Shown here: positions 17,224 through 58,300 of the stretch, piece by piece
Numbering within the stretch: position 1 is the stretch's first letter
Layout: every line of letters begins with the position of its first letter
Assembly (NCBI RefSeq): GCF_000003855.2
Contig: NW_003101645.1
Span: forward strand, 15,632 to 79,631
DNA: 64,000 nt
Reading direction: 5' to 3'
From: Blastomyces gilchristii SLH14081
Lineage: Eukaryota; Ascomycota; Eurotiomycetes; Onygenales; Ajellomycetaceae
The notes under the pieces: generated by a model
What the model was told of the DNA's origin: nothing
The model's input: only the letters and a program-made list of their open reading frames with translations
Database searches by the model: none
Program-made: the position numbers and the translations under genes

Positions 17224-20200
17224 ATGGGACTCCAGATGCGTCCAGCAATGGCGCAGAGCTTCGACACCCGCCCGACGGTGAATGACCTCCAGGAGGATAA
17301 CCGGTGGGTGAATCTGGCTAGGGCCCACTGGTTGAAGCTGTCGAAAGCTCCGAAGGCAAAGCCTGAGGTTATCAAGAATGATCTATGGGATGGACTGGTG
17401 TCGGAAAAGTTCGCTGTTCGTTCTCTTCTGATATTGGAAAATCTTCATGTGCTGGAAAAGTAGGTTATACTCTTTTGCTTGTTGCTGTTGTTCTTCTTCA
17501 GACAGAATCCCCCTGACAACAGTACTCTCTCTGCCCAGGTTCCTTTGGCCAACATACTCCGAAGATTCCTCCAACTACCATGTCCTGCTCATAGCCGTGA
17601 TTGCTGGAATTAAACAGAGGGAGCACTTGCCAATATGGGGTAAGGTTACCCTGAAGTCGCGTAGTTATATCACAGAGGCAAATACTGACTCCATCGCAGA
17701 GCATTTCATGGAGAGACCGACAGACTTCACGACCCTTTTCCGCCGTATCCTTGCTATGAACCTTGATACAACATTACCAACAAAGTCCAAGATCTATCTC
17801 CTATCATTCGTTATCAGCGCTTTTCAATCGCTGGAGAATGCGCTTATTCGCAAAGAATGCGCTCCGCTGGTTACGATATCGATTTGGCACAACCTTCACA
17901 ATGATGCTTCTAGGAACAAGCTCCTGGAACAAACGGATACTTTGAAACGGGGATGGCGAATAGCTGCGAAGCGGTATGAGAAGGCTGACGATGCTGGAAA
18001 GGCAAAGCTCCGATTTGATCGTTCTTGGTTATATTCGATGCTGCTCGATTTCCTTCAACGAATCAACATGGCTGATGGCAGCGATCCGGACAATGTACGA
18101 TATTGCGAGCGATTTATGGAGTTCCTTGTCGATCTGGACAGCCAGCTTCCCACGAGGCGATACTTCAATTCCCTCCTAAAGGATCTCAACCTCCTTGCAG
18201 TAATCCGAGTATCAAAGCTTTACAACGAGGAACCGAATGCGCTTTTCCGTGATTTCTACACTCTCCTCAGGCATTTCATCAACTTTGCGGTAGACGATCA
18301 GTCGGGCCAGCACCTTTCTCCTCAAGCTGTTTATGACGTTCACTGTAGGGAGTTGGCTCATCTTCAAAGAACAGCAATTAAGCATTTCAAAGACAAACTC
18401 ACCATTTTAGCATTATCAAACTACGGTTCGATCGAACAACGGCCTGAATTAGAGTCACACTTGTCCGCCTTGACTGATGAAGAATTAGAGACCCTTTGTT
18501 CCTACCTTGGTTTTAGAATAAGCTATCCTAAGCAATCCAATATTATTCCCGATCGCCAACTAATTCTTGAAATTATACTCTCGGCTTTCGAGCGCCATCG
18601 TTCATTCCAAGAGTCCGCATCACAGCTGGCCGTCATGCCCACGGAATCAAACTTGTACGACCCTGCTTTGATCCGCAATGAATCCTATGATGGCTCTCGG
18701 CCATTGGCCATTCCAAAATTAAATTTACAGTATTTGAGTCTTGGCGATTTCTTATGGCGATCGTTTTTGCTTTATCGTTCTGAGGCTTTTTTTGAGATCC
18801 GAAAGGACCTTGAATCAGTACTCAAGCGATTACAGCCACTCTTTCAGAGAAATACCGGGACTGTGTCATTTGAAGGGTTCTCAAGAATGGCAATACCAAT
18901 TGCAAAACCGGCGATCGTTGAAGTTGCACCAGCAAAAGTTGGATCAACTAACCCTGCATACGTCCGTGCCGAAATTGGACTGGACGTCAGCCGTCTCGGT
19001 GATAATGTTCGAAGAGAATGGGAATCGCTTCGGCCTGACGACGTCGTTTTCCTTCTTGCGTTGCAGCCTAAGAAATCGGTAAAGCAGATATTTAGCAACA
19101 GCCGGGATCCAAAAGATGAAGTGAGCTTGTTACATGTCCGCACTGCGGAAGTTGTACAAGTTCTCGACGAGCACGGACGATTTTTGAGGGAACCTCAAAC
19201 CGAGGAAACGAATGGATACAGGCCGCGGCCGCGACTTCGAAGATTACTTGTGAATATCGATGCAGCGTCGTATAAAGCCGACATGGAAACTCTTGCGAAA
19301 GGGAAACCCGACGTCTACACATCTATCAATGTAATTGTTAGGCGAAGCGCCAGAGAAAACAATTTTAAGCCAATTCTAGAAACCATGCAGTGCCTAACGG
19401 TCGCGGACACCAATCTGCCTCCGTGGATACAGGAGGTTTTCTTAGGCTACGGAGACCCGGCTAGCGCCAGATATACAGAACTGAGCAATAAAGTAAAATC
19501 TGTCGATTTCCGTGATACGTTCCTAAATTGGGACCACCTTGTCGAAAGTTTCCCAAACCAGACAATTGTACCAGATGACGGCGCGGCCTCTCGCTTTGAT
19601 CCACCATATGTCTTGGAGATGTTCGAGGAGAATCCCAGGGCGACAAGCTCGAACGCATCAAAGAAGAGACGACGAGATCAGGTTGAAGTTGCTGAGAAGA
19701 CCCCCAGCTCGATACGTGTTTCCTCATACCGTCCACCTAATCCAGGACCTTATCCGGTTGATGCTCCGAAACTCAACAAGATTCGATTTACACCAGCCCA
19801 GGTCGAGGCCATTGTGTCCGGTACCCAACCTGGCATGACTATTATTGTTGGACCCCCAGGAACAGGAAAAACTGACGTTGCAACTCAGATTATAAGCAAT
19901 ATTTACCATAACTTCCCCAATGAGCGGACATTACTCATCGCCCACAGTAACCAAGCCCTAAACCAACTTTTCCAAAAAATTATGGCCTTAGACATCGATC
20001 AACGCCATCTCTTGCGGTTGGGTCGAGGAGAGGAGGAGTTGAACACTGAGGAAAGCTATAGTAAATACGGTAGAGTGGATACTTTCCTGGAGAACCGTGG
20101 TAGCTACCTTGCCGAAGTAGATCGTCTGGCGGCTTCAATCGGAGTGGAGGGCGCTCATGGGAACTCTTGCGAGACGGCAGGCTATTTCAACACCGTATAC

Positions 20201-21724
20201 ATTCGACCGGCGTGGAAGAAATACTGGGATACAGTTCAGGCCGAAGACTGTCCTCGCGAAACCGTTATCGAAGCTTTCCCTTTCCATTCATTTTTCTCGA
20301 ATACCCCAAAACCGCTGTTTGATCCAAATTCGTCAAAAGAAGAGCTGCTCGACGTCGTTTCCGGATGTCAAAGGCATATGGACAAATTATTTTCCGAGCT
20401 TGAGGATATCCGTCCGTTCGAGATTCTCAGATTCCAGCGCGATAAAGCCAACTATCTTCTAGTAAAAGAGGCTCGAATAATTGCCATGACTTCGACCCAT
20501 GCGGCTATGAGGAGACAAGAAATTGCCAACCTTGGATTCCAATATGATAATGTTGTAATGGAGGAGGCAGCACAAGTCACAGAGATCGAAAGTTTTATCC
20601 CTTGTGCGCTACAGAACACTAAAAACGGGGAATTGCCATTGAAACGAGTAGTACTTTGCGGCGATCATCTCCAAAACTCCCCCATAATTCAGAACATGGC
20701 TTTCCGGCAATACGCGAACTTTGAGCAAACACTCTTCTTACGCCTTGTAAGGTTGGGTGTACCGACAATAAATCTAGATCAACAGGGTCGATCACGTCCG
20801 TCAATTGCAGAACTTTTCAGATGGAGATACCCACAACTACGAAATTTGCCGGCTGTAGAAACGAACGAAGAGTTCAAACTCGCCAATCCCGGCTTCAAAT
20901 TTGACTACCAATTTATCAACGTTCCAGATTATCAGGGAGTCGGCGAAAGAGAACCCTCAGCCCATTTCATTCAAAATCTTGGCGAGGCAGAGTATACTGT
21001 TGCTATATATCAGTATATGCGTCTCCTTGGCTATCCAGCATCGAAGATATCAATCCTGACAACGTATACGGGACAAAGAGCGTTGATCAAGGATGTTCTG
21101 AACCATCGATGCGCCAAGAACTCTCTATTCGGCTTACCAAAGATCGTAACGACGGTAGACAAGTATCAAGGGGAGCAAAACGACTGTAAGTTTAATTGCA
21201 TCCCCAAATAGAGTATCAAACTCTACAAAAGTTTTACGGTATTCGAAACTAATGTTTAATAAAAAACAAAAACAGACGTTATCCTCTCCCTCACACGCAC
21301 ACGAACCGTCGGCTACTTGCGTGATGTGCGCCGTCTTACCGTCGCCCTCTCCCGTGCCCGGTTAGGCCTCTACATCCTCGGCCGCCGCGAAGTCTTTGAA
21401 TCATGCTTCGAACTCAAACCAGCATTTGACATACTCCTCCAGAGGCCCGATAAGCTCATGCTTGTTCCCGGCGAGCTCTTCCCGACTTCAAGAACTCTAG
21501 CGGAAGATGCTGTCACTGGTACGCCAATGGAGGGAATGGAGCACCTGGGCCAGTATGTGTATGAGATGACCCAGGCGAAGATTAAGGCGTTAGCGGAGGA
21601 GGGGAAGGCAGCGGTCGCTCCTGTGGATGCCGATGAGGTTATGGCCACCATTGGTGAAGAAGGAAAGGATGAGGAGGCTGATGATGAAGAGCGTTTTGTA
21701 CAGCCGGAGAGTATTCTTGATTAA
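17224..21724 (+). CDS. AQR: Intron-binding spliceosomal helicase Aquarius (Cwf11 type)
   Basis: Exons are 17,224-17,459, 17,539-17,639, 17,700-21,185 and 21,276-21,724, with GT-AG introns of 79, 60 and 90 nt; the product is 1,423 residues, the usual family size. The N-terminal half is the helical ARMADILLO-like Aquarius domain (from FLWPTYSEDSSNYHVLL through LFRRILAMNLDT). The C-terminal half is a UPF1-like SF1 helicase with Walker A GPPGTGKT at about residue 830, Walker B-like EEAAQ at about 1,067, a QGRSRPSI block, and TVDKYQGEQND followed by VALSRAR. It binds introns in the activated spliceosome and helps resolve R-loops. ATGs at 17,236 and 17,248 are alternative starts; the last (MAQSFDTRPTV) fits my memory of homologues best. 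The C-terminal tail is acidic. Confidence 0.95.
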
Positions 21725-30423: not shown

Positions 30424-33400
30424 TTATTCCCCAACTTCCGACTCAGAATCACTATCAATAATGAACGCGCCAAGCATGCGCCGCTGTCGTGCAGGCATCT
30501 TGACCTGCTCCTCCTCTTCCCTTCCGTCACTCCCAACCCCTTTGTCTCCCCCAGTTTTGTCCTTGTCGGCCAAACTAGCGAAGTAAAACGGGTTATCAAA
30601 GTAATCATCATCATTCATGCCGAATATTGGATTGCGTTCGGTGGAAGTTGGCGGCGTGGTATTTTCGCTCCTTCGTTCAGGCTGAGCCATGGATATCGAC
30701 TCAGTCTCGGAGGATGATGATGGTGTTTCCTGAGTGGCCATCATGACGTCTTCGTCATCATCATCCTCAGGATTGTCAATGTTAATTGCGTTATCTTCGT
30801 CATCGCTATCTAACAGAGGATCGCTGCGCTGACGTTTATTGTTTTCGTCGCCATTAGCAGTACTTTTCCGTTTCCGTCCTTTGCTGGAAGATTTTTGGCC
30901 AGTTGCTTTATCACCCCCGGCTGTACCTGATAATAAAGCCTGCTTGATGCGTCTCGCCTGGTTTTTTCTCCTCTCCTCCTCTCGCGCGAAGAACTCCCTA
31001 TCGGCTTCCTCGTCCGACTCTTCATCGCTGGCATTGATATATAAACTGCTTTTGATCTTTCTTTGGCGCTCCAAGGCATTCGCCTGTCGTGCCAGACGAC
31101 GCGCTTCGAGCGCCGCCTCGTCCGGGCCATCACCATCCTCTTTGTTCTTTTTCCCTCGTCTAAGTCGCTTCTTTTTAAGCTCGTCTAGTGTGCCGGTCCG
31201 AATGCGAAGATTTGGCGGGAATAAGATACCATCAATATCGTCCTCCCCCTCTGAGTCGTTTCCAAAATCAACCTCACCCTGTGGTCTTCCATGGGACGGC
31301 ATCGTAGTGTCGACGTCCCGTTTTCGACGCAGTAAATCGCGAGGTTCCAGCCCGTCAAATTCAGTTGGCGGGTTTTCACTGTGTTTCTCAACTGATTTTT
31401 GGGTTTCTTCTAAAGTTTTGGCTGATAACGATGATGGGATTATCCACGAGGAATCCAGCGTGTCCTCAACACCCAGCCTCTCAAATCCAGCCAATGTCAT
31501 TAGGAGGCGGAGGCGTCCATTTTTGAACAAGGCAGTACGACACGCATCATCAAGGGGTATAACAGCTAACGAAAATTGTCAACATATATTTGATCGTGCG
31601 GAATCGATATCTTATACATACCTATTGAAGGTGGGCTGGGAGGATGCTCCCCGCCAGATTCGGTTTGCCTAGATTCTGCTTCAAGCTCCCAGCATCTCCT
31701 TTCATTTACTGCGGTATCAAGCGTTTTAACAAGCCATTGTACTAGGTTCTCCTTTCCTTCCAGGTGTAGTGCAGCTACAACAATCCCCAATCTAGAATCT
31801 AGGGTTGTGGCAGCACCGGGTTTCACCTCCAACTCAGCCGCTGGCTTTGAGTTAGACACTGTCTGTCTCTCGTGGCCATACTCCAGATAAAAGACAGTTG
31901 CGTTAATTTTGCTAAATAGCATTTCAGTGATAAGCTCTGGGCGTTGTTCTAATTTCTTAATGAGCTTTCTGATAACTCGTCGTGTGAGCTCTTCCCATTC
32001 AGCATACACCGACTTTGCCGAATCAAGACCCCCTGGACCCTTTATCATCCTGTAAAATAGCGAAATTATATCCACACGGAAGAGCAAGACGCTTAACTCT
32101 TGCTTGAAAGCCACACGGTAGAAAAATCGGTGTGCTCGTTTCAACTGCTCCTCGTTGAGCTCTCTGTAATGCGTAGTTAAAGCAAGGAATGTGTTGACAG
32201 ATTTTTGGGTGCAGAATTTGGCCGCAAAACGTCGAAAATCAAAAGATCTTTCAACTATCGTTCTAGTTGCATCTTCCATGGCCAAGTCTTCGGCTTCAGA
32301 CTCATCATGATTTTGAGTTTCGGGGTTTTCAGGATTGGCAACAGCTTCTTTACGTTGTTTCCGCCTAGCTCGTCGCCGGGATCGAATCTGCATATGTTCA
32401 TTCTGCTTCGAGTACTGTTCCAATAATCGAAGGAAGACATGGGCCAGTTCAGTGCAAGCATCCAAATACCAAAACCCTTGGCTTTCGTAGCCCCTCAATA
32501 TAGTCAATATCCTGTCATGCGTTGTTTCCTCATAGAATATTCTGCTCAAGATATTTTCTGCAATATCTTGATCTTCACTGATGTCAGAATGGAACATTTG
32601 CTGTACTGTTAGAAGGATTTGTGTGAAACACCGCATACTAGCGTTGAGGTCTTGCCAATCCTTGAAATCTAAACAGTTCTGCATATGTCTATTTAGAGCA
32701 ATAAAGGTTTCTTGGTTGAGGACGCTAGCAACAAGCTGAAAACTATCCGGTTCAATGTCCCTCGCAGGGTTTGGATTCTGCTGACGAAGTTCTTGTTGAC
32801 GGGTTCGACGAACCCTCTCGGCTTCGAGGAACCAGGAAATTACATAAAAGAATTGGCGAGGTGTGGACTCGGTAACGCGGTCGGCCTCGCGCTCAATGGC
32901 TTTGCGGAGATGTGAGAAGAGTGGGTTGAAACCAGAATCCAAAAACTCCTCAACAAATGTTCGTAAATTTTTGGTCGCCGATGGTGTTAAGGGGGAGGGG
33001 ACGTTAAAGTTATTAACCGACATATCAACACCTCCCCTTCTGTGTTTCGGCCTATTCCACTTCTTTGTTTTGTCCATTTTCAACATTGTCGTCCAATCGT
33101 CTTTTAGTACGTCCTGACCCGAAACGGTGGATACTTTTTCATCATCTCGTTTCACCCAGATCATGGTGCCAAATCGTCCGTGCCTTGTAGGGGCAGTTTT
33201 GGCGTATTCCCGCTTCAAATGTGATTCCTTGTCTAGGAGAGCCTCAAGATCATCCGTACCGGCAATGCTTCGTTGAGTATCATTCATGAACAGCTTCTCG
33301 ATATCGACACCCTTGACAATATGGAATAGAATCTCCAGAATAACGACGTCCTGGAAAACAAAATCTTCTCCCATATTGGAGCACATTGTTAATAGAAGGG

Positions 33401-34222
33401 CAAATACATCTTGTTCTTGAAAGGCGTTTATGGTGGCAGACTTTGATGCTTCTTCCTCATCGCCCTCTCTAGCTAGATGTGGAGAGGGTGTTATTATAGC
33501 AAGATTTCTGAATAGGTATAGCATTAACTTTAGAATCCCTTCGTCTCGCGAGGAACGGTCTGACCGAGGAGTTGTCATGCTTGGCAATGCAATACGGATA
33601 ATCGTTCGTAGAATGGCTGTGGTATCATTTCCAAGAATCCCGCGCTTATACAAAACCTGCGACTGCTGCAAGTATGGTGTATGTCTATGGTGGTTGACCG
33701 TCATCTGGCTGTGAATCTCGAGCGGCCATGTCAAGGGAACAAGCAATTCCACTAAAATGAAGCATATCAGCGGATGTCACTAAATTACGAAGTTTGGAAA
33801 AGGGAAGGGAAAGCGCAAATTGCTTACAGCATGCCAACGCAATTCGCGACTTGTGCTTTTCATCATGTATATCATCCCCCCAAAGTGTGAGAATGGGAAT
33901 CAAGTCTCGATTCACCAGGTTTGCTTCGGCCAAACACCTAGCCACGTCCATGCGGTTCGCTTTCTCGTCATAAAACTTCAGCCATCTTTTGATATCGCGC
34001 AAGCACGCGAGCGCATCGTCTCCTAAGACATATTTGCCTATATCACTACTCCCAGAGCCTCCAAGCTATTGTAATTTTATCAGCTTTCCATTAAATTTCA
34101 ATGATCAATGGGGTGGTTTGGAGGTTCTTCTAAGATAGACACACCGCAGTGATAAGGCTGTAGACATAAGCGCGGACTTCAGGATCCACCACCTGGACTG
34201 GCTGGACAGACTCTGACTCCAT
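30424..34222 (-). CDS. TOF1: Replication fork protection protein Tof1/Timeless
   Basis: Four exons on the minus strand: 34,145-34,222, 33,828-34,065, 31,622-33,751 and 30,424-31,565 (introns 79, 76 and 56 nt). They join to 1,195 residues, typical for Tof1/Swi1. The N-terminal Timeless domain is clear: [51 protein letters not shown] and [10 protein letters not shown]. The central part has helical repeats, and the C-terminal third is highly charged with acidic clusters ([20 protein letters not shown]) and Lys/Arg-rich nuclear localisation-like stretches. With Csm3/Tipin it forms the fork protection complex that stabilises stalled forks, supports the replication checkpoint and sister cohesion. 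It is divergent from HADH across 402 bases. Confidence 0.95.
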
Positions 34223-38801: not shown

Positions 38802-41175
38802 TCATCCCAACAGCGAATACGGCGACTGACCCGCCAGCCGCGAAAATCCCCGTTTCTTCTTCTGTATTGGAGGCTCCTGAACTGCCGCCGTGGCCCTCTC
38901 CGGTTTCACGGGGGCTACAACAGCAAGCTGAGGATGTGGCAGCTTCGGCTCCAGCTGAAGAGATGTTACAGGCACTGGTACTGGCGCAGGGACGAGTACG
39001 AGGGCGGGGCTAGATTGGGTTGGCGTAAGAACCGCTTCAATGTTCGCATCTCCAAACTCCGAGTCGGCAGGCAGCTCCACAGGATTCGGCACGACTTCCA
39101 CGGCGGGCAATTCCACGATATCCACGCCTGTGTCTATCAGTCTGGTTCTGTATTCGTCGAGCATCTTCCAGCGCTTCTCGACAGCCGCGGTAAACCAACT
39201 GCGATCGACGATGACCCTCTGCACCAGCTTGGAGACGGTGTCCTGCTCCGCTTCGCGGGTTGAGGTGTAGTCGCGTGCTAGTCCGGCTTCAAGGGCTTTT
39301 AGTTCGAGGTTGTTAGTTTTCTCTTGGGTAAGGATTGCTTGCTGATGGGCTTGTTCAAGGGTGCGCATTTCGCTCTCCTGGTCGGCTTTGAGTTTACCTA
39401 GGATGGCTTTCTCTCTGCTCTCGCGGTTGGCATTTCCTTTGAGATGGCGGAAGATGGTGAGGAAGGCCTCGTCTTCCTCTTCTTCGTGGCGGGTAGTGAT
39501 GCTGTCGACTTCTACCTTTTGCAAAGCTAGTAGTTGATCCATGCGTTGTTTTTGGTTTGTTCTTAGGCCCGTTAGGAGCCTTTCCTCTTGTTCCTTGACC
39601 TCTGACGAGCCCGCCATGGTCCTGATCTGGAGGTCATGCACAGCCTTTTCATGTCGTTTGATAAGTAGGGTCTGTTGAGACTCATTGACGTTTGATAGCG
39701 CAGTGCGTAAGCTCCATAGTCTATTGGCGATATAAAGCATCCGCTTAACTTCTTTATCGCGGAGCTCCTCTTCCTCCTTGCGGCGTTGCTCTTCTTCCCT
39801 CAGTTCTCTCTTCCTGGCTTCCTCGAGCTCCATGCGTTCGATCTGGGCAATCGCCTCTGCGATCTCAGCAGCCTCGGTTTGCATTTGTCGATCCCTCTCG
39901 AGCCGGCGTGTCTCGATATCACCTTGCCTACGACGTTGATCATCTTCCGTACATTCGCATGTCCGCCACCGAGCTCCACATGTGTAGCTGTAAAACAAAC
40001 GTGTCAGTCTCGGTAAGAAATACTACAAAGTAATATTGGGAAATTTGTCAAATGGTCATACCAGAACTCCGATCCACATTTACAAGTTATATGCCGACAA
40101 CCAGCAGTCAACTCAACTAGAGAATGGCAGTTGTAGCATCTTCTCCAGCCGCGATTTTCGGCTTCCTCCAGTGTAGCCTCCAATCCATGGTCTTGGGGAC
40201 AGTCATTAAGGTTTGCATGCGTTAGCCCTCGGCAGAGGGTACAAATCTCAACGCGGCAATATGGACAGCTCTTTTGAGTAGGCTTTTTGCCCTTTTTGAG
40301 TTTGTTCGGAGGTATCCATTTCGCACATGACGGTTCAGGGCAATATACTCGATTCGGTTCAGCAAGAGCGTATTCCTGCACTTTCAATTTGTATGCGTCT
40401 CTTCTAGTGTGGTCCAAATTATCAAGGATAATTCGCTGCGGTATCTCCTCAAGACAACATTTTGGAGGGAAGAGCCTTTCGGTGGCCATTGCGGTATTGA
40501 CGAGTTGCAAAAAGCATCCCAGGCAATATTTATGTTGGCAATTCAGGGTGATCAGATTCTTATCCAATATATCGTCAAAACAGCTCGAACATTCCCTAAA
40601 GAGAAACTTGTTGGTAATCGAGCCTCAAAGGTTATAAAGATGACATACTTGAATGTATTGCGCTCTCTTAATCTATCCCTAAGCCCCTTTGTAGGTTTCG
40701 GCGTCTTACTAGCGATCCAGCCTAAAGGGCGTTTGATAGACCCCGAGTCCATCGAGAGCTTCGAGGGCGATCGGCTGCCATCAGAGTTGTTCAACGATGA
40801 CAAACGAGATAGCTGGGAAGTCGAACCGTTTCGTGGTCTGTACTGTGAATCGGACATGAGCGACCGTCGATCCCCAGCCAGGTGCGCATCTGACCCGCCA
40901 TCACCAGAAGAAGGAGCCTTTTTCCTGTACAGATCAACAGCTAAAGACTGATGAACGATAGTTATGATATCTGGAGGGGTGGTGTCTAATGTGCCTTTGA
41001 GTTCCGCAGGAAATGGGTGCGCAAGCCAGTGAAGTGGTTGGAGCTGTTCTGCCTTCACGTCCAGCTCGCCCAGCCCCGCCAGCCGGGGCCATTCTAGTAG
41101 ACGGGAGCGCTTGTCGATCTTCCTTGAGGCGGGGATACGGCTGCTCTCTGTGGTGGAAGGGACGGGTGTCGTCAT
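38802..41175 (-). CDS. RBR (RING-IBR-RING) E3 ubiquitin ligase with long coiled coil
   Basis: Exons on the minus strand are 40,649-41,175, 40,062-40,595 and 38,802-39,987 (introns 53 and 74 nt), 748 residues. Residues 1-175 are a Ser-rich linker. The RBR module runs from about 178 to 365: RING1 opens with CSSC and has CQHKYCLGC, the IBR has CPEPSCAKW and CPYCRVEIC, and RING2 is CYNCHSLVELTAGCRHITC then CGSEFCYTC. By analogy with HHARI-type enzymes the thioester-forming cysteine is that of AGCRH, at about residue 342. A Glu/Arg/Lys-rich coiled coil follows (about 375-620), then a Pro/Val-rich tail. RBR ligases receive ubiquitin from an E2 on that cysteine before transfer. The specific target is unknown; the arrangement recalls fungal IBR proteins of unknown substrate. 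Confidence 0.93.
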
Positions 41176-43098
41176 GTCTAGTATGCGCTGAAATCCAGAC
41201 GGATTCAGAGAGAATAGATGAGGGATAATAGAATAAATCCTCGCAAGGGGGGGTGTTTATTTTAAATCATAGCCAGAAACGAGAGGAACCTGACCGGTAA
41301 CGGCGCGGATGTTTCCGTCAACTTTCTCAAGTTTGAGGCGCATAGGTCATACAATATATTTAAATAAGCTGCCAGCCGAAAAGGGCCAGGAGATCTGAAA
41401 ATTATTTGCTGAGGTGGCCGGCAAGAAAACAAACACAAGATGTACTGTGTAGGTAGGGGTGTAGTCATAACAAGCGGATGAAGAGAACTGATCTGCGTCT
41501 GCGGGGGCTGTTAAATACCAGGTCTTTGAGCACACAAAGAAACCGTGGCAGTTCAGGAGTTGAGCCGCATTGGGCCTTCTTCCTCTGGGCAGCCCTACTA
41601 CTGCTCAAAAAGAGCGTGCATGACAGGCATATGGCACCCGCCGGCAAAGGCCTATCTCGAGGAGTACGAGCAGAGTCAGCGAGAGAGAATGGTGGCTGTA
41701 GGGAGGTGAGGTCACTGAGGTGAGGGAGGGACCAGAAACTAGAGAGGATGCTGTGTGCTTGGGACAAGGCTTCGTTCAAGACAGCCCCAGCAAGGGCTCG
41801 TCTCATTATTATTCATTATTATTGTTGTCCAAGTCACGAACGGGCATCGATCGCAGCGATGGTTTAATCAATTAAATTGCTGCTTTCGGGGCAGTGCTCT
41901 TACTCCAAGGTTGTTAGGGTTAGAACGTGTATTCTGATGTATCCCGCCCACGTTTTCTGGCGGGCAGGAACATGTTGTGACTTTGTGTTCTATTTTAGGC
42001 AACAAGCTAACTAGCTTTAATCGCCAGATGAATGCCTTTAGTTATTGTATGTATCTTTGAATATCGCTCAACTAAACATCCATAGACCATTATTGGTTAA
42101 ATAACGGTAGTTATCCGTGTTGGTCTCTCCCCGCTAACTATGGAGTTTAGACCTCGTAGTTACTTTTAGGGGCTCCGCCAAAATGCATAACTAGTTAGTT
42201 AGTAACGTTAACTAGTAACTAACTATACAATGATCCTCTCGAACTTTGCCCCTCGCCGTCTGATAATGCTAAGAAGTCTGCGTGAGAACTAAATTAGGAT
42301 AAGAAGGGAAGTAGAGAAGAAGTATTGTTCTTCAGATCTAAAAGCAATCGTGGAGTACGGACGGCCGTCATTTTAATGTAGTCTCTCACGACCGTTATCA
42401 ATATTATATCCATACACATTACGGAGTACACATAGGTGGAATATACAGATATAACTATCTTACAATATGAGAGGCGAATTCCTTAAAGAGATATAGAAAC
42501 GTAGAAACGAACGCCAGCAGGAGGTGCCATCTCATCTCATTTCATGACTGTATCAAATCATCAAAAGCTCAACCGTCATCACTGTCGACACAATAACACT
42601 ACCCATTCCAATCATGACTCCCCGCGCACTTCTGTCCACATGCAGGCAGTTCAATGCCACTTGGGAAGCTGCCTCATCGCCCTCGACTGCGGAATACGAT
42701 TGGAGGTAAATGGGTTGTACCCGCGTCAATGAAGCGTCAATGGCCGCCTGACTCTCATCTACAGGAATCTCGTTGTATACTCGGAGGATACACCTGTCCC
42801 AATGAATATGCTCTTGTCCACGGTATGGTATGCTAATACATCGACCAGAGTGCGCCTAGGCACCAAATCTGGCTTAATGATAGTATTATTTATACGCTGA
42901 CCAATGATCAGCTTGCTGGGGCAGGCAAGGCTGTCCTTCAGACCAAGATTTCCTGCAGGCAGCTGAAGCGGCTAACTATCCGTAAATCAAAATGAAATTC
43001 TAGCACTTATATCCATATCTAGTGGATATACAAGTGTGACATAACTCTCTCCCTGTCATTTATTTGCTGTACCGATAACCTCCTCTTCTTGAGTTGGG
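41176..43098. other. Intergenic region upstream of the TPR-ankyrin-TIR-like gene
   Basis: 1.9 kb without a supported gene. Short open frames near 41,480-41,940 and 42,544-42,836 show no motif. An A/T-rich imperfect palindrome built of taactag/gttagtta units lies near 42,187-42,228. The ATG at 43,099 is preceded by a T/C-rich leader. Confidence 0.5.
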
Positions 43099-46023
43099 AT
43101 GACCAAAATAGAGGACGGAGCCCAGCCTATGCTGCTTCCCTCTGCCAATGGTGATGGTTCCACTCGCGCAGCAAGCGTTAATACTGATGACTACCTCAGT
43201 TTTGACGACGATAGCTTCTACATTCCGAGCTCAGAGCTCTTGCGAGTGCTTCAAGGGGTGGCAGTGGCGACAAAGACACCTGCAGTCAACGTTGACCCAA
43301 TTGCCCAGTGGATTTCATTATACGGAACTCAAAAAGACAACCCGACAGATTCTCTTTCCTTTGACGATTGGAATGAGGGCATTGTTACCAATTTCCTAAA
43401 AGAGGACGAGCTGCTACACATAGCCAACTTAACTCTCGGCGTCACATTTCTACGTGAAAAGTCTCGACGAGCCAGGGGGGAGGTTCCCCTCATCGATCTA
43501 GCGCTGGCATGGGATCTGATTCATGGAGCGCTTACTAGTCCACTCCTCGCCCGGCCTCTGGGTAGCGTATCGAGGAGCGCACAGGGTTTCCTGGCCGTTC
43601 CGCTCTGCAGCTTGGTGGAGGAAGGACACATTGTTGAGCTGTTTCGGCTCCACGTATGGCTGCCGGATGGGCAACGTGGAGATCCCGAATTTGCAATCCA
43701 TTCTCATCAGCCTTTCGCCCAGAGCTGGATACTAGCTGGTGAGGGAAAGAATCATTCATACAATGTCAAACCAGTTGCAACTTCTGCGGAGGGCACCCAC
43801 GCAGCGTATGAACTCTCCTGGAATGACGGGAGGAATACGGACAGAGCATATAAAACACATCAGGCATCATCCACCATTACGAACACACGAGTGTTGATGC
43901 ATGCCTCGCCAAAGGAAGTGGCAGTTCACCACCGTGACGCGACGTACACTATTCCAGAAGCCGCATTTCACAGCACAGAAGTATTGCCTGACGCATTCCA
44001 TGCTACACTTTTTTTCTTCGATTCTCACCGTGGATTCATGAAAGATGCTCGGGTGCTGGGTCCCAAGGATGTCGAATCAAAGACCCAGTTGCGTGATGCC
44101 TCTGGTGTTACTTCGACCGCTCTTGCAAACATGGTTAATGCTGTCCGCGAATGGGAGATGTTCATGGATCAGGGGCGACAACATGCACGGCGTGCTGAGT
44201 GGGAGCACGCGCTACGGGAGTTTAACAGCGCTCTTAACATGTGCCAATCTACAGAATACTTTTCAGGCTTGGCATCTTATCGGCATCTAGTACTAGGGGA
44301 GCTTGGGAACACCAACAGGCGGTTTGGGAGGTATGAGAAGGCCAAGGAAATGCTGGAACAGGCGGTTGAAGAAATGGGATCTAGCCTCCAGCGCGTAGAG
44401 TTCAGTGGTGAGCTAGGCGTGATATATCGGCATATGAATCGTCTTGAGGAAGCGAGGCATGCATTCCAGGTTCAATATGACACAGCAAAGCAGCTGCAGT
44501 TTGATCATGCGATGTGTCGTGCGGTCGGGAATTTAGGTATGATCAATTACCAACTTTCCCAGCAGAACGGTGACGAAGCACTGTTAGAGATGGCCATCGC
44601 TCAGCTTAATGAGCGCGTCCGCAGTGCTCGGCATATCAAAGAAACCATCCAGTCTCAATCATTTGACCTGAACATAAAATTGGAGTTGTCAAAAATTGCA
44701 ACGACTTGGGAGTCAATCGGCCTATCTCGCCTTTCACTCTGCTATGCGGCGAAAAGAGATGCCAAACAGGCCATTGCGACATCATTAGAGTCATTAAACC
44801 TCAGCAGCCGCTCAGAAGATTCAACGGTGGTCGCCATGTCTCGTTTTTTCTATGGCCGGGCGTTGCTTCTAGATCAACAACTTGACGAAGCTCTGAAGCA
44901 GTTTAATCCATGGATGACGTGCACACCTGCTATGGCACTGTGCAAAGAGCCCTCCGAAGAGCACCGTCAATATTTACGAGAACTGGTTGACGTGGGTGCG
45001 GACATGGACTTGGTCGACGAACAGGGATATACAGCATTGGATTACGCCGTTTTCAACGGCGATGTAGAAACTGAAGCTTTGGTACTGGAAGGGCTTCGCC
45101 GGAAGCTCGAAGGAGACGTAGAAAACGAACTTAACGAGCTCCAGGTGGAGGCGAGGATTCGGAAAGGTTACCGGGAGTTATTTCAAGAAAAGATGCGGCC
45201 TGCGCTCCTCAGCGGCGGAGGTTTGCAGTCATTACGGCATATGTACGCGAACGAGCTCGCAGCTGACGATGAGAAACGACGAATGTTCGATGGTCTCAAA
45301 TTCATGAGATTCCTGGACTTTTTAAAGTTTGGAAAACTCCCTCGATCAAGCGACAAATTGGCGCGGGAGTTCATGTCAAGACCTAATGGGAATGATCGAA
45401 TCGGTACAGCGGACTTTGTCATTTTCTTCTCATACAGATGGATCAATAGGGAACCAAACGCTTCTTCACCAGACGACATCGATAACATGCAATATCGTCG
45501 AATGATAGCCGCAGCCGAGCAGTTTCTCAAACTCCATCCCTCGGTGGAAATGGAGAAATTGGGGATCTGGGTAGTAAGTCAACCCAATCCGTCATCACAT
45601 CTTCCTTCAATTATTCACCCTCTCTAACTCTTTGCTTCCCTCTCCCCTGTGCAGGACCACGCCTGCATCGACCAAGAAAACCCTGCGCCGGGGGTCTCCG
45701 CCTTACCAATGATTCTCGTCCAATGTGACGCCGTAATCAGCCTCTTCGATGACCTTTACCACCACCGCGCCTGGTGTTCTGTAGAAGTGATGATGGTGCA
45801 GACGCTTCGAAAATCCTATGGTCAACATCTGTGGTATGAACAGGTGTTAGCACCGCAGTCACAGGGAGATGCTGACGATGCTGGCGAAAGTCGTAATGAG
45901 AAGTGGATTTTGCGAGAGGGACCGATTGAGTTGGAGATTGTCATGGCAGAAAAGCGATTGACTTTCGAGGAGGATCGGGCAAAAGTGTTGTTTTTGGAAA
46001 GGCAGAGTCGGTTGTTGGGATAA
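43099..46023 (+). CDS. TPR-ankyrin protein with C-terminal TIR-like domain
   Basis: Exons are 43,099-45,573 and 45,655-46,023, with an 81-nt intron (GTAAGT...GCAG, phase 0) inside the TIR-like domain; 947 residues. Residues about 60-330 form a beta-rich region with His pairs (HSHQPFAQSW at 201-210, AAFHSTEV around 291, ATLFFFD) suggestive of a cupin-type barrel. Residues about 350-600 are helical TPR-like repeats (EWEHALREFNSAL, GRYEKAKEMLEQAVEE, MNRLEEARHAF). One ankyrin-like unit follows (GADMDLVDEQGYTALDYAV). The C-terminus from 772 reads DFVIFFSYRW, then GIWVDHACIDQ, LVQCDAVISLFDDLYHHRAWCSVE. This is the beta-strand/active-site order of TIR-like folds, with WCSVE matching the WCxxE of TIR enzymes (Glu at about 869). 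It has no NB-ARC or NACHT module. Predicted soluble, it may be a sensor or signalling protein; NAD cleavage is only a hypothesis. Confidence 0.85.
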
Positions 46024-47410: not shown

Positions 47411-47450
<40 letters not shown>

Positions 47451-48766
47451 CCCCAATATATAATGGCGATCTCAACCAGTCTCGCAACTTACAGTCGTTC
47501 CATAAAGCCCGGAATCAATGAATTGCCGCCAACCACCATAATGTTTGCCCAAAATGCAGGATGTAGACCGGTTGGAAGCACGGATAGTGACTGCGTTACA
47601 ATTTCAGGAATCCCCATCTGTTTCATCCCAATGTCTCCAGGATTGAATAGTATTTCGGGGACAGTGAACCGCTCGTTTCCAAGCACCAAGACATCTTCCG
47701 CCATTGTACCCGAAGCGCCGGAGAGAAGTTCTTTCTTCTTCTTGGCCGCTGTAAGGCTTTCATGTGGGCGTACGAAACCCTTCTTGTGGGCATTTGGGTC
47801 AGGAAGAACGTAGTCCACAACGATCCCTTCTCCCGCGCCAGTCTCATGATCATCGGCCTTTCGCTTTCGGTTCCCTTTCCAGGTTCGTTCGATGTCTGCA
47901 GCGAAATCGTTGCTGACAAAACAGGCGGCTTCCTTGACCTCGTTTATTATGTGCGTCTCATCGAGCATGTTGTACTGCCGAATGGACACGAGCTCCTTGA
48001 GGAAATTCGTAAGATATTTCCCGCCAATCTCTAATCGTCTGATGCCTCGTTGCAGTGGGTATCCTTTGTAGACAGGAGTAACAGTCGTATGCGAATATCC
48101 GGAATCAATAACTAGAAGACATTCAACGGGAAAAATACTGGAGTTTGGGTCTGAGGTCACCGGGTCGCCGAATAGAGCATGGAGTTCATTCCAAGCATTG
48201 AGCGTTGGTCCTGTAGCAAGCAAACCATCTTTAGCAATTGGCAAACAAATATCACGGGCGTAAAAATGGAAGAGCTACCCACCAATGCATCTCAAATATC
48301 CTCCAAATCCCCACTCCTCCATAATAATCTCATCCGCATTCTTCTGCAACGCAGCCATCGCATTCGGGGCCTCCGTAAAAATCAAAGTCGTATTCTCCGG
48401 ATCTGCACATCGCAACTCCGGTTTCCGCGCCGTCCCGTCATCAAAAAAAGTATGGTCCCAGATTTCCTTCTCCGCTTCCCAGCTAACCACATAACCTTTC
48501 TCGACAGGGCGACGAAATGTGGCCTCATTCCAGTCCGAAATATGCGTTGACAGCTGGGCGCCGATGTAGACGCGTTTGTCGCGCGTTCTAGCCAGTGCAT
48601 TGGGGATCACCAGACATGAGTTTAGGGGAGGTTCAGCGCTCGGTTGGTCAGGCGCATAGCCAGCTTTCATGGTATATGCGCCATTGTCGATGATGAATGT
48701 TTTCGAGGGTAAGGGCGGCGGTGAGGGAGCGCGTTTCGCCGCGCGTGAGGGCTTTGCTGCTCCCAT
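47054..48766 (-). CDS. ARP6: Actin-related protein 6 (Arp6), SWR1 complex subunit
   Basis: Four exons on the minus strand: 48,283-48,766, 47,493-48,210, 47,308-47,370 and 47,054-47,189; introns of 72, 122 and 118 nt; 466 residues. It has the actin fold start TFIIDNGAYTMKAGYA, then YLRCIGPTLNAWNE at the first junction, LLVIDSGYSHTTVTPVYKGYPL (phosphate loop), IGGKYLTNFLKE, an insertion rich in Lys/Arg, then PEILFNPGDIGMKQMGI, WANIMVVGGNSLIPGF and a final STWLGA. These are Arp6 hallmarks. Arp6 is a nuclear subunit of the SWR1 remodeller that installs H2A.Z. The second intron carries a run of 39 T (47,412-47,450). A short Ser/Pro/basic N-terminal extension precedes the actin fold. Confidence 0.94.
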
Positions 48767-53589: not shown

Positions 53590-54760
53590 CCTTTCAATAT
53601 GTATATTTCAACATTTCAAGTGATTTAGTAAGCTCATCTGCCGCATTCTCAGCAGATGAAACATATTGAATAGATATCTTATTCTTACAGATGAGATTCT
53701 GAAGAATGTGAAAACAGACCTCTATATGCTTCAAGCAGCATGAAATTGCTTCAGAAGAGAATAGCTCTATGACAGACTTATTATCAGTATAAATCATATA
53801 AGTCAGATCATTGACTGTGATGAGAATGAGATGATTATCAGTATTCAGATTATTGAGATGAGATGAGATGAATTCAGCATCTTCTAGAAGCTCTCAGAGA
53901 CAGACAAGCTCATATATAATCTCAGAGAATGCAATATATTCAGCCTCTGTTGATGACTTGAAGACCTCTGTTTATCAGCAGCTTCATCATGCAATGAGGC
54001 CATCTATCATGTAGATGATATAACTGGTGATTAAATGAAATTCTGAATCTCTACCAGCTCAATCAGTATCTGTGTATGCTATAGATTTAATTTCAGCATC
54101 TCTGTGATAGATTATACTCTCATTGATTGAACTCTGTAGATATCAGAGTGTATACTTGTATATAATCTGATTCTTTGATATAGACTGAGAGCTGAATTGT
54201 TCAAGAAATCCTGCAGTGAAGCTCATATCAGAATATGTATTAAATATCAGATATTGTAGAAATCTGATACTGAATTAATAGAATTGTAGTGTAAATTCTA
54301 CTGTGTATATAATCAGTTTCTTATTATCATTTATAAAATCAATATTCTTCTTTATAGAAGTGAATGTAAAGTGATAGTTATTTATTAAGAACTTCTTCAG
54401 AAGATTTCTTATAAAGAGAGATTAAGATAATATTAATAAAGTTAAATATTTATTAATCTTTATTCTCAGATAGTGATTGAAATTCTCTACATTCTTGATC
54501 TTATAATTAGCAGTAATTTCAGCTTTGACTCAGTTCAGATCTTTGATTTTCAGACTGTAGAGACAGATATTTTTTATATAGATAATTATATAGATCTGTC
54601 TTTCATTATAAATAAATAGTTCAGTATTATAAAGACTGATGCAGAAGTCTGAATATAATAGTATCTTTCACAGCTTCTTATATTATAAGAGTACTACTTG
54701 CTTAAGACTGTAGAGTCTCTGTATTAACTCATATATAAGATTATGTAAGAAATCCCACTT
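53590..54760 (-). mobile_element. Decayed Ty1/Copia pol (RT end and RNase H)
   Basis: Minus-strand translation gives the terminal RNase H: YTDNKSVIELFSSEAI, then LKHIEVCFHILQNLI and NAADELTKSLEMLK. Upstream of it is the KSSTEAEYIAFSEII motif that is diagnostic of Copia RNase H (SSTEAEY). The preceding WxSKxQ block is destroyed by stops. Further upstream (54,000-54,760) is stop-ridden RT sequence. The element is nonfunctional. Confidence 0.85.
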
Positions 54761-55329
54761 CTCGCGGATTCTTTACCTCTATTTCTATCTCTCACATAAT
54801 CAATAGAGCTAGCAGCCCTTGGCTACACACAACTATATAGACTGGAGTTCGCGAATACTATTCATAACTCAGCTTGAATACTATTATACATTTAACTTCT
54901 ATATTTTATCTTTCTACTGTGAATACTTCTAGTAGTTAACAGTATATATCATATTAAGCTACAAATATCTGAATAATTATCTGTAAGCACTTATTCTTAC
55001 ATTTCAAGCTCAGTCAGTCAGCAATTATCTGTTATAACTAAAAGAACTAGAAACTTGTATACTTCAATCCCTGTGAACTCTACTGCAGATACTCAGAAGC
55101 AGTCATCTGAATCATGAATAACCTCTATAAAAGAAGTCTCAGAGAACTTATTAATTACTTATAAAATATTATTCTCTGTATCTGTGACAGAGAAACTCTT
55201 CAAACTCATAAATAAATTAATCTCAGTGAAGAACATTCTTGAGTATCTCTTATAAGATTAAGCTATTTTTCTATAAGAAATACTTACTGTCTGTGACAGA
55301 ATGAGCTATATTGAAATTCTGGTCAAGAT
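54761..55329. other. AT-rich mutated DNA between transposon remnants
   Basis: Stop-rich, CpG-poor sequence. A short less-mutated patch around 54,770-54,860 (cttctcgcggattc, ggagttcgcgaata) may be the end of an LTR. No gene is recognised. Confidence 0.5.
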
Positions 55330-58300
55330 ATCTCAAATGAAATGCTTGAGAATAGAGTGAAGCTTATTACATCTATTATTCTAACAAGTGTTAGAGATAA
55401 TATTTCAAAAAGAAAATCTTCTGAGTATTCAAAACCTTGGTGAAATGAGAATATCTTATCTAAAAGAAAAGAATTAGCTACTGCTAGAAGAGATTGAAAG
55501 AATGATGTAATATCTGATTAAGAGTTCAAAACTGTCAGAAATGAATATTTTTCAGATATTAAAAGAGCTAAAACAGACTGCTGGAATAAATTTCTTGAAG
55601 AAGCACAAGAGAAGGAAGTTTTTAAAGCTTTTAACTATACTAAAACAAGAAGTGTAGCAAAACTTCCAGCCTTAGAATATGAGTTTCAGAATGAATCATA
55701 TACAGCAAACTCTTTTGAGAAAAAATGTCAAGCTTTCATAAGAATTCTCTTTCAGAACTCACCAGATTCAGATTCAGATTCAGAGAAAGAGAATATATCA
55801 CTTCTCAACTACATTAATGAAAATGACTGAGAATGACCTGATCTTACACAAGATGAATTAGAGTCAGCTATCTTCTCAAGTTCTGTTAAAACTGCTGCAG
55901 ATCCTGATTCAATTAATCACTTGATTATTCAAAATACATATTTCTACTTAAAGAATGAATATTTTGAGCTCTTTTTCAATCTCTTAAAAAATGAATATCA
56001 TTCTAAATACTGAAGAGAAGTCACTGAAGTGATTCTTGCAAAACCTAATAGAAAAACTTCAATTTCTAAGTCATATAGAGTAATATCTCTATTGAACTGT
56101 CTAGAAAAGGTTTTAGAAAAGATAATAGCTACTCAACTATCTTTTATAAGCTCTATAGATAATTCTCTTTTATTCAGTGAATAAATAAGAGATAGAAAAC
56201 AGTGTTCTGCAATTGATACTGTTCTCTCAGTTATTCATGATATTTAAATAGCAAAGTATGAGAGTCTGGTCTCAACTGCAGTTTTTATTGATATAAAAGA
56301 AGCATTTAATCATGTTTCAAAGTCAAAGTTAATTCAGATATTGAAGATATTAAAACTGTCACTTTCTCTAATAAAATGAGTTAACTATTTTATATCTAAA
56401 AGAATTATACAACTCTTCTTTGATGAAATGAAATAAGACAAGACTGAGATAAAAATAGAAGTATCACAGAAATCTTCAATCTCACTCATTTTATTTGCAA
56501 TATACACTGTATATCTATTCAAAAATAGAAATATGAGAATAGTGTGATCTCTGAGTTATATGAATGATATTGATCTAGTCTACAGCTTAAAAACTATCAA
56601 AGAGAATTTAAAAGTAATTGAAGAAGCTGCAAAGAAAATCTTTGTTAGAGCAGATATTAATTAAATTCAATTTAATATGAATAAAACTGAGTTAATTCAT
56701 TTCTTTTCTAGATTCAATGAGAAAGAACTATCTCTAACTCTTTTAAATAGAGAGATTAAACCCAGTGTAAATATCAAATAGTTAGAAGTATGATTAAACT
56801 TCAAGTTGAATTTTAAATATCACATTTAATAAAGAACTGTCAAGGCAGAAAGACTATTGAATAACATAATCAGACTATTAAATACAGAGAGAGGTCTATT
56901 CTTCCAGGCTATGAGACAGTTATATATAGCCTGTATTACATCAGTAGCTGATTATAAAGTTCAAGTTTGATGAAATAATCAAGAGAATTTCACTGAACTC
57001 TTTCAAAGTCTGTAAAACAGAGTCTTGAGAAGAATTCTGAAAGCATTCAAATCATCTTCTATTAAAGCAATGAAAATTGAAGCTTCAATTCCTTCTTCTG
57101 CTATTAAATTTGAAAAGGCCTGTATAAACTATACTCTGAGAGTTGTAAAGATGAGCTCAAATCATATAATCAGAGAAAGAGTCTCTTCTTCATTTTCATC
57201 AATTAACTCTGAAAATGAACTGGATTGAAATAGATTTCTTGATTGAAATGAAAATAATTCTTCAAAGAAAATATCTTCTCAACTGTACAGACTATACTCT
57301 CTGATTAAAAATCAATTTTCTTCTTTAAATATTGAAAAAGTTAATCATGAGAAGTTATTATTCTGAAGAGAAAAGCTTGAATCTCTTATAGACTTATAAA
57401 TAAGTGAACTATCAAAAGAGAAAGAATATAAACAGTATTTGAAGAGAATTTCTATAATCAATATAAAAGACTCTATTCTGATTTATTCAGATGACTCAAA
57501 AAATGAGAACTTGAATAAATTAGACACAGACATTGCTTATACTGAAGATAATATCAATTTTATCTCAGATTTCTGAAATCTAGGCTGTGAATGTGAAGTC
57601 TTTGATGCTGAACTATTTACAATAGTGAAAGCTTTCAAACTCATTGAAATAAAATCTTATAAAAGAGAAAATTGTTTGAAAGAGGTATAAATATTCTCTG
57701 ATAGTCAAGCTGCTTTAAAAAGACTTAGAAATAGTCAGATTTATAATGATCAAATGAATCTTCAACTGATCTTAAACTCTGTTTTAAAAATTCAAAAGAG
57801 AAGAATATCAAAGCTGATAATTCATCTGCACTGAGTTCCTGCTTATATGAATATTCATGATAATAAATTGACTGATTCAGCTGTAAAAAAGAGTGCAGAA
57901 TTAAGCAGATCTATTCAAAAAATTATGTTATGATCTTTTATAAAGAGAAAAATAAAAGAATCTTGTTTAGACAAGTGAAATGAAAGCTGACAGAAACAAA
58001 AGAAGAGTATATATTATTCAAGATTTGAAATAAAATCCAGGTGAAAATCTTGTTCAATTAAATGTAAAAAGAAAATATTCTCATCTATAATACAGCTGAA
58101 ACTAGGACATGGCTATTTTAAATCTTATATACAAAGATTTGATGATAGATTTAACTCAATAGAATGCTCATTCTGTAATACAAATAAGAATCCTGAGTAT
58201 ATTGTAATACACTGTGCATTATACAATAGTCTCAGAGCTAGATTGAAAGAGAAGTATGATCTAAATCAATTAAATATAAGATTCTTATTCTCAACTGAGA

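Follow-up and report, generated by a model that had tools for sequence, protein, structure and literature searches.

The kinship of HET and TIR domains has been published by Dyrka and co-workers (PMC4986451), and passages of two further articles mention a glutamate common to both (PMC9153377, PMC9815663). Passages of these three articles also describe fungal NOD-like receptors, in which a TIR or HET effector occurs together with TPR or ankyrin repeats, and one passage (PMC9153377) refers to oomycete proteins that join ankyrin repeats to a TIR domain and calls them uncharacterized. In this work, we have analysed by computation a 64,000-nucleotide window of the genome of Blastomyces gilchristii SLH14081 (contig NW_003101645.1, positions 15,632 to 79,631), and within it a single gene whose predicted product carries a cupin-like module, TPR helices, an ankyrin-type repeat and, at its C-terminus, a compact domain related to TIR and HET. 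An earlier reading of the letters of the window (the sequence-only reading) had taken this protein for a TPR-ankyrin protein ending in a TIR-like domain.

The window protein differs from the fungal NOD-like receptors in that it matches neither NACHT nor NB-ARC in Pfam at E ≤ 10, in that its effector is C-terminal and not N-terminal, and in having the cupin-like module in front. With the oomycete proteins, compared by description only, it shares ankyrin repeats and a TIR-type domain, whereas no TPR or cupin part is named in the passage that mentions them (PMC9153377). The HET-TIR kinship and the shared glutamate are already known; the compact form of the domain and the cupin-TPR-ankyrin-TIR/HET architecture are apparently undescribed. 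We found no paper on this architecture among open-licence PMC papers, in agreement with the earlier suggestion that the protein is poorly described.

RESULTS

A predicted TIR-like fold with HET-type motifs

Of 7995 candidates scored against the full protein, 302 are homologues at E ≤ 1e-3 (120 of the 302 listed), so that the family is not a chance occurrence, and a search with residues 735-900 gave 134 matches at E ≤ 10 (120 of the 134 listed). The conservation counts rest on an alignment of 167 different proteins pooled from both listed sets. In the spliced protein the motifs of the C-terminal domain stand in the order given by the sequence-only reading, with DFVIFFSYRW from residue 772, GIWVDHACIDQ from 822, DAVISLFDD from 850 and WCSVE at 865-869, and Glu869 is where it had been placed. 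Among the homologues with a residue at the position concerned, the F and S of FFS are invariant (166/166), as is the cysteine of WC (138/138), the R and the W of SYRW are each present in 158 of 166, and the glutamate of WCxxE is kept in 130 of 135 and in all 27 members of a C-terminal alignment hand-chosen from 48 representatives. Four of the five exceptions resemble frames truncated near the intron, and the fifth, P0023 (AWCSVQ), is annotated 'partial'. The catalytic glutamate has a known place in plant and SARM1 TIR domains.

The AlphaFold2 model of the domain is an alpha/beta fold (predicted local distance difference test, pLDDT, 88.2; predicted template modelling score, pTM, 0.82), and plant TIR domains take the first five places among its Foldseek matches to solved structures (E 4.6e-3 to 2.0e-2, template modelling (TM) score 0.35-0.40, probability 0.99-1.00), which supports a TIR fold without proving it. 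The earlier proposal of a TIR-like fold whose SYRW strand and WCxxE glutamate are conserved has held, as regards the fold with moderate force. In addition to the predicted fold, the order of the elements and the position of the glutamate after the third strand are as in the TIR domains of plant RPS4, RPP1 and RUN1, of MyD88 and of TIR-APAZ proteins. Unlike these, the window protein has no Pfam TIR match (PF01582, PF13676) and no nucleotide-binding domain, and its WxDxxCxxQ block is HET-like.

Judged by sequence comparison, the domain is nearer to HET than to TIR. HET (PF06985) is its sole Pfam match, although below threshold (14.3 bits with the full-length protein and 17.5-18.2 with the domain alone, against a cut-off of 22.5). 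Among the 27 family members, 25 match HET (E up to 10; best 6.5e-5), while TIR_2 is matched by 2 (best 0.12) and TIR by 1 (0.2); the next Pfam family, matched by 6 (best 0.016), is presumably there by chance. No match to the domain was found in NCBIfam or PADLOC, and a PDB sequence search with its profile gave chance-level matches only. In the source genome (75 contigs, 74.8 Mb), eight loci account for nine HET matches, and PF01582, the one TIR model searched, has none. Three blocks, SYxW, WxDxxCxxQ and RxWxxxE, follow one another in the same order in the family and in seven HET domains of its own genome; in the RxWxxQE form of the third block, the Q before the E is replaced by V in the window protein. 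A strict pattern of the three ordered motifs fits 108 of the 167 homologues, in which the spacing from SYxW to WxD is similar to that of the seven HET domains (46-48 residues in 94 of 108, against 42-52). The family is set apart from HET by the short and almost constant distance from block 2 to block 3, which measures 30 residues in 106 of these 108 homologues and 48-96 in the seven HET domains, by the score of the window protein's domain below the Pfam cut-off and by the C-terminal position of the domain. We file it as a compact C-terminal relative of TIR and HET that is not a formal member of either Pfam family. The sequence-only reading had seen in it one of the uncommon TIR domains of fungi: the predicted TIR-like fold stands, the rarity does not, the nearest relatives by sequence being HET domains, which are common in fungi.

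Several homologues, for example P0018, P0034 and P0055, bear UniRef names starting 'Heterokaryon incompatibilit', and that of P0149 starts 'TIR domain-conta', so automatic annotation already sees part of the relationship.

A cupin-like module, TPR helices and one ankyrin-type match

In the full-length AlphaFold2 model (pLDDT 89.4, pTM 0.81; 92 of 98 long homologues, hand-chosen, in the alignment), helices at residues 45-147 are followed by a run of strands at 166-332 and then by the TPR helices. The strand run had been overlooked by the sequence-only reading, which had otherwise read the sequence accurately. Cupins carry two motifs in a beta-sandwich: HxH with a Glu and a Gly after it (motif 1), and PxGxxH (motif 2). 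HxH is found in 132 of the 140 homologues that have the N-terminal domain and P-x-[GA]-x-x-H in 94 (with a strict G in 26); His292 is kept in 134 of 140 and His302 in 131 of 139.

Among viral structures, the whole model is matched best by a 247-residue uncharacterised protein of Caulobacter phage CcrBL9 (E 2.9e-5). L-ectoine synthase, which we take to be a cupin, ranks 20 in the same viral fold list, which was likewise searched with the whole model. Among 24 CcrBL9 frames of that length, one with a GTG start (L027) was singled out because it carries IHxH and PxGxFH; to judge from organism, length and motifs, it is presumably UniProt A0A385EFJ3. It aligns with the fungal N-terminal profile over 128 columns (E 9.8e-5, probability 58), and the uncharacterised phage family PHROG 4784 is matched both by the N-terminal domain of the window protein (1.1e-6) and by this phage frame (5.8e-6). 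The frame also has an H-x-W, but its 247 residues include neither TPR nor TIR/HET, and its best PHROG is 8027 (5.1e-6; cysteine-rich stretch). Profile searches of other kinds were negative. The 18 members of the N-terminal alignment (hand-chosen from 35 representatives, 24 of them printed) gave no convincing match in Pfam or NCBIfam and none to a Pfam cupin model, a profile search of PDB sequences stayed at chance level (plastid ribosomal protein L22), as did the single match among all phage records; in CcrBL9 neither the N-terminal profile nor Cupin_2 found anything, and no viral contig encodes a relative at the sensitivity of the profile scan. From the predicted fold and these sequence matches, we tentatively read the module as a cupin-type domain common to fungi and phages.

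For the repeats, several Pfam TPR models exceed their cut-offs, PDB fold searches with the full-length model are dominated by TPR proteins, with the LGN and Rap structures ranking high, and Ank_4 scores 24.8 bits against a cut-off of 22.7 in one stretch only; the PDB sequence search also returned designed ankyrin proteins. The combination of TPR and ankyrin repeats with no nucleotide-binding switch, already noticed from the sequence, is borne out.

Two halves that also occur apart

Front and back halves of the protein exist separately. A search with the front module, length-limited to short proteins, gave 71 matches (P0168-P0238), mostly of 307-335 residues, 21 of them from Colletotrichum; in 18 of these 21 the match ends at residue 350-355 of P0001, a Blastomyces dermatitidis homologue whose numbering is that of the window protein plus one. 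Conversely, the beta-sandwich is absent from 24 of the 167 homologues, and in 16 of the 24 the match starts at residue 340-360. Sordaria brevicollis, Rhizodiscina lignyota and Parachaetomium inaequale are each listed with both a full-length protein and a back half. Because the cuts recur near one place, they support two functional halves. In Xanthoria, front (P0184) and back half (P0142) have consecutive locus numbers and may be a split gene model. Three of the front modules (P0175, P0180, P0185) carry the name catalase or peroxisomal catalase in their source records, which seems to be a mistake.

Gene model and spread of the family

The coordinates given for the gene by the sequence-only reading are right. 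An in-frame stop at 43090 lies just 5' of the ATG at 43099, and from three GT-AG pairs that preserve the frame, a single one was chosen, which yields GIWVDHACIDQ and a frame ending at 46023. The predicted two-exon structure is thereby supported by frame, splice signals and homologues (Table 1). Its counterpart in B. dermatitidis ER-3, P0001 (BDCG_08696), is almost identical: the alignment shows no differences but a substitution and a residue inserted near the start. When the source genome was searched with the protein, it returned the gene's own locus, split in two, and a 79-residue match in the repeat region (E 0.58), so we take the gene to be present in a single copy.

All but 6 of the 120 matches listed from the full protein search cover at least 80% of the query. 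The family members among the matches listed come from Ascomycota, Basidiomycota (Pisolithus, Astraeus, Pilatotrama), Umbelopsis and metagenomes. In a tree of 51 hand-chosen proteins (2 metagenomic, the other 49 from named species), the seven Ajellomycetaceae sequences form one group (100/100), with the three Blastomyces together inside it (100/100) and Emmonsia paired with Emergomyces (97/67), while the backbone lacks resolution and 16 of 48 inner branches are open. The relatives from Emmonsia, Emergomyces and Helicocarpus are 71-79% identical to the window protein. Histoplasma, Paracoccidioides and Coccidioides are not named among the 120 of 302 matches listed, and the gene has possibly been lost there. 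The Boletales sequences (Pisolithus, Astraeus; P0014, P0015, P0017, P0020, P0031, P0103) group among the ascomycetes with the long-branched Xylaria grammica (100/97), which on this long branch and weakly resolved backbone might reflect a transfer between phyla. P0115, with 53% identity to the fungal family, carries the label Candidatus Bathyarchaeota archaeon and is probably fungal contamination of an archaeal assembly. Scans of prokaryotic contigs found none that encodes a relative of the C-terminal or the N-terminal domain at the sensitivity of the profile scans, and we therefore claim no transfer from bacteria.

Genomic surroundings

Ten of the window's 31 open reading frames of at least 150 residues were scanned against Pfam. 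Five have a match, in every case to a conserved family, and five have none; by family assignment, the matched neighbours are housekeeping genes (Table 1). G+C content is about 0.50 across the gene, drops to 0.37 at 51-52 kilobases (kb) and from 53 kb on remains under 0.40, the AT-rich, repeat-filled part starting about 5-8 kb downstream of the gene. Within it lies, at 54001-57000, a repeat of which the genome has at least 39 further copies at 96-97% identity over 1.7 kb, while the 1.1 kb 5' of the gene matched itself alone. With neighbours of conserved families, a G+C content near 0.50, unique DNA upstream and AT-rich repeats kilobases away, the gene looks as if it sits in a normal gene block, several kilobases off the repeat-rich isochore. 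The sequence-only reading had put it beside decayed accessory genes at an isochore edge; the neighbours scanned lend no support to decayed surroundings. A run of 39 T (47412-47450) adjoins the actin-family gene.

Table 1. Positions in the window of the gene, its predicted domains and its neighbours (residue numbers of the window protein)
Feature	Position	Strand	Evidence or remark
Gene, one intron, encoding 947 residues	43099-46023	+	
Exon 1, codons 1-825	43099..45573	+	open frame, upstream in-frame stop; matches P0001 (BDCG_08696)
Intron, 81 bases, GTAAGT...TGTGCAG	45574..45654	+	frame-keeping GT-AG choice restoring conserved GIWVDHACIDQ
Exon 2, codons 826-947 and stop	45655..46023	+	frame, splice signals
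N-terminal beta-sandwich, cupin-like, residues about 157-334	43567..44100	+	high-confidence AlphaFold2 strands, HxH/PxxxxH patterns, PHROG 4784, phage frame match
His201 and His203 of beta-sandwich	43699-43707	+	HxH pattern
His291 of beta-sandwich	43969-43971	+	PxxxxH pattern
TPR helices, residues about 339-602	44113..44904	+	Pfam TPR_12 1e-10; LGN and Rap TPR structures
Cut point of stand-alone front/back halves, about residues 349-353	44143..44157	+	ends of homologue matches
Ankyrin-type match, single, residues 621-657	44959..45069	+	Pfam Ank_4
C-terminal TIR/HET-like domain, residues 771-947, intron-interrupted	45409..46020	+	AlphaFold2, Foldseek, Pfam HET in 25/27 members
Glu869 codon, candidate catalytic glutamate of WCxxE	45784..45786	+	conservation in homologues
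Aquarius homologue	17447-21211		Pfam match
Timeless	31566-33752		Pfam match
IBR-domain protein	40004-40567		Pfam match; 2.5 kb upstream of gene
Actin-family gene, two pieces	47489-48766		Pfam match; 1.5 kb downstream of gene

DISCUSSION

What could such a protein do? It is most likely a sensor-gated protein that cleaves NAD (nicotinamide adenine dinucleotide) or signals in another way, the enzymatic step being the presumed part. The specific proposal that we favour, tentatively, is a signalling protein in two halves, a sensor followed by an effector, the latter of which would use Glu869 to cleave NAD+ or a related nucleotide. The order of the parts, cupin, TPR, ankyrin and then TIR/HET, suggests that a signal enters at the N-terminal end and is put out by the C-terminal domain. 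The sensor half would consist of the N-terminal helices and the possibly metal-binding cupin-like beta-sandwich, followed by the TPR and ankyrin-type repeats, and the effector would be the compact domain of the TIR/HET superfamily at the C-terminus. A small molecule or a protein might bind the cupin/TPR part and so release the C-terminal domain, which would then self-associate and cleave its nucleotide, with growth arrest, cell death or a nucleotide signal as the outcome. Together, the conserved WCxxE glutamate and the fold suggest that the bond cleaved is the N-glycosidic one of a nucleotide, most likely NAD+; metal binding and self-association, as well as the cellular location and the biological role of the protein, are what we infer beyond this.

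Several observations limit parts of this picture. The link to HET is weakened by the short span of the hhalign comparison, in which the family and HET aligned over only 14 columns (probability 49, E 1.7e-4), and by the poor separation of HET sequences from shuffled ones in hmmsearch: with seven HET sequences against 700 shuffles, two scored clearly above and three just above the best shuffle, one fell inside the shuffled range and one (L007) was outside the 20 rows listed. At the front, the glutamate that follows HxH in the textbook cupin is a glutamine in 127 of 140 homologues. Some of the half-length proteins, moreover, may be annotation errors.

The main rival to NAD cleavage, which we consider unlikely yet worth keeping in view, is a non-catalytic adaptor, in which the C-terminal domain would be a scaffold that assembles with other TIR or HET proteins in the manner of MyD88-type adaptors, and the glutamate would be structural. 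MyD88 TIR filaments are also among the structural matches of the C-terminal model, the eight HET loci of the same genome offer possible partners, and a role of this kind for HET is proposed in a passage of Dyrka et al. 2014 (PMC4986451). Nevertheless, R-x-W-C-x-x-E and the loop that precedes it are very strongly kept, which would suit an active site better than a surface for self-association.

To a bolder extension of the enzymatic reading we give rather little credence: the protein would be a fungal counterpart of SARM1-type proteins, a conserved, non-polymorphic switch gated by a metabolite or a metal and consuming NAD, in which the cupin shared with phages senses, the TPR and ankyrin repeats relay, and the compact domain represents an extant intermediate form linking TIR with HET. 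As the halves also exist as separate proteins, a two-component pair of sensor and effector would then be possible, and HET domains would be TIR-type enzymes with an insertion.

It is improbable that the effector is an enzyme like an N-glycosidase or deoxyribosyltransferase that acts on another nucleotide and serves metabolism, not death or immunity: TIR domains hold the top five places of the Foldseek list, while the first deoxyribosyltransferase comes at rank 37 (probability 0.77), and the order of the motifs is that of HET.

A heterokaryon-incompatibility (allorecognition) gene, ranked last and very improbable, would fit the kinship to HET domains, which according to passages of two articles take part in reactions of this kind in Podospora and in Neurospora (PMC10890737, PMC12881547), but the near-identity to the ER-3 protein, the one copy found in the genome and the species-like branching among the seven Ajellomycetaceae sequences favour a conserved signalling role over polymorphic nonself recognition, which the sequence-only reading had suggested.

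The protein is a good candidate for testing whether fungal TIR/HET domains break down NAD in the way known from plants and animals. With its three blocks at near-fixed spacing, the compact domain may lend itself better to expression and to comparison with TIR enzymes than do HET domains, whose spacers are long, and since the family spans Ascomycota, Basidiomycota such as Pisolithus, and Umbelopsis, the result would apply widely. Its cupin-like front half offers an initial clue to an input, by a small molecule or by redox, that would lie outside the architecture of the NOD-like receptors.
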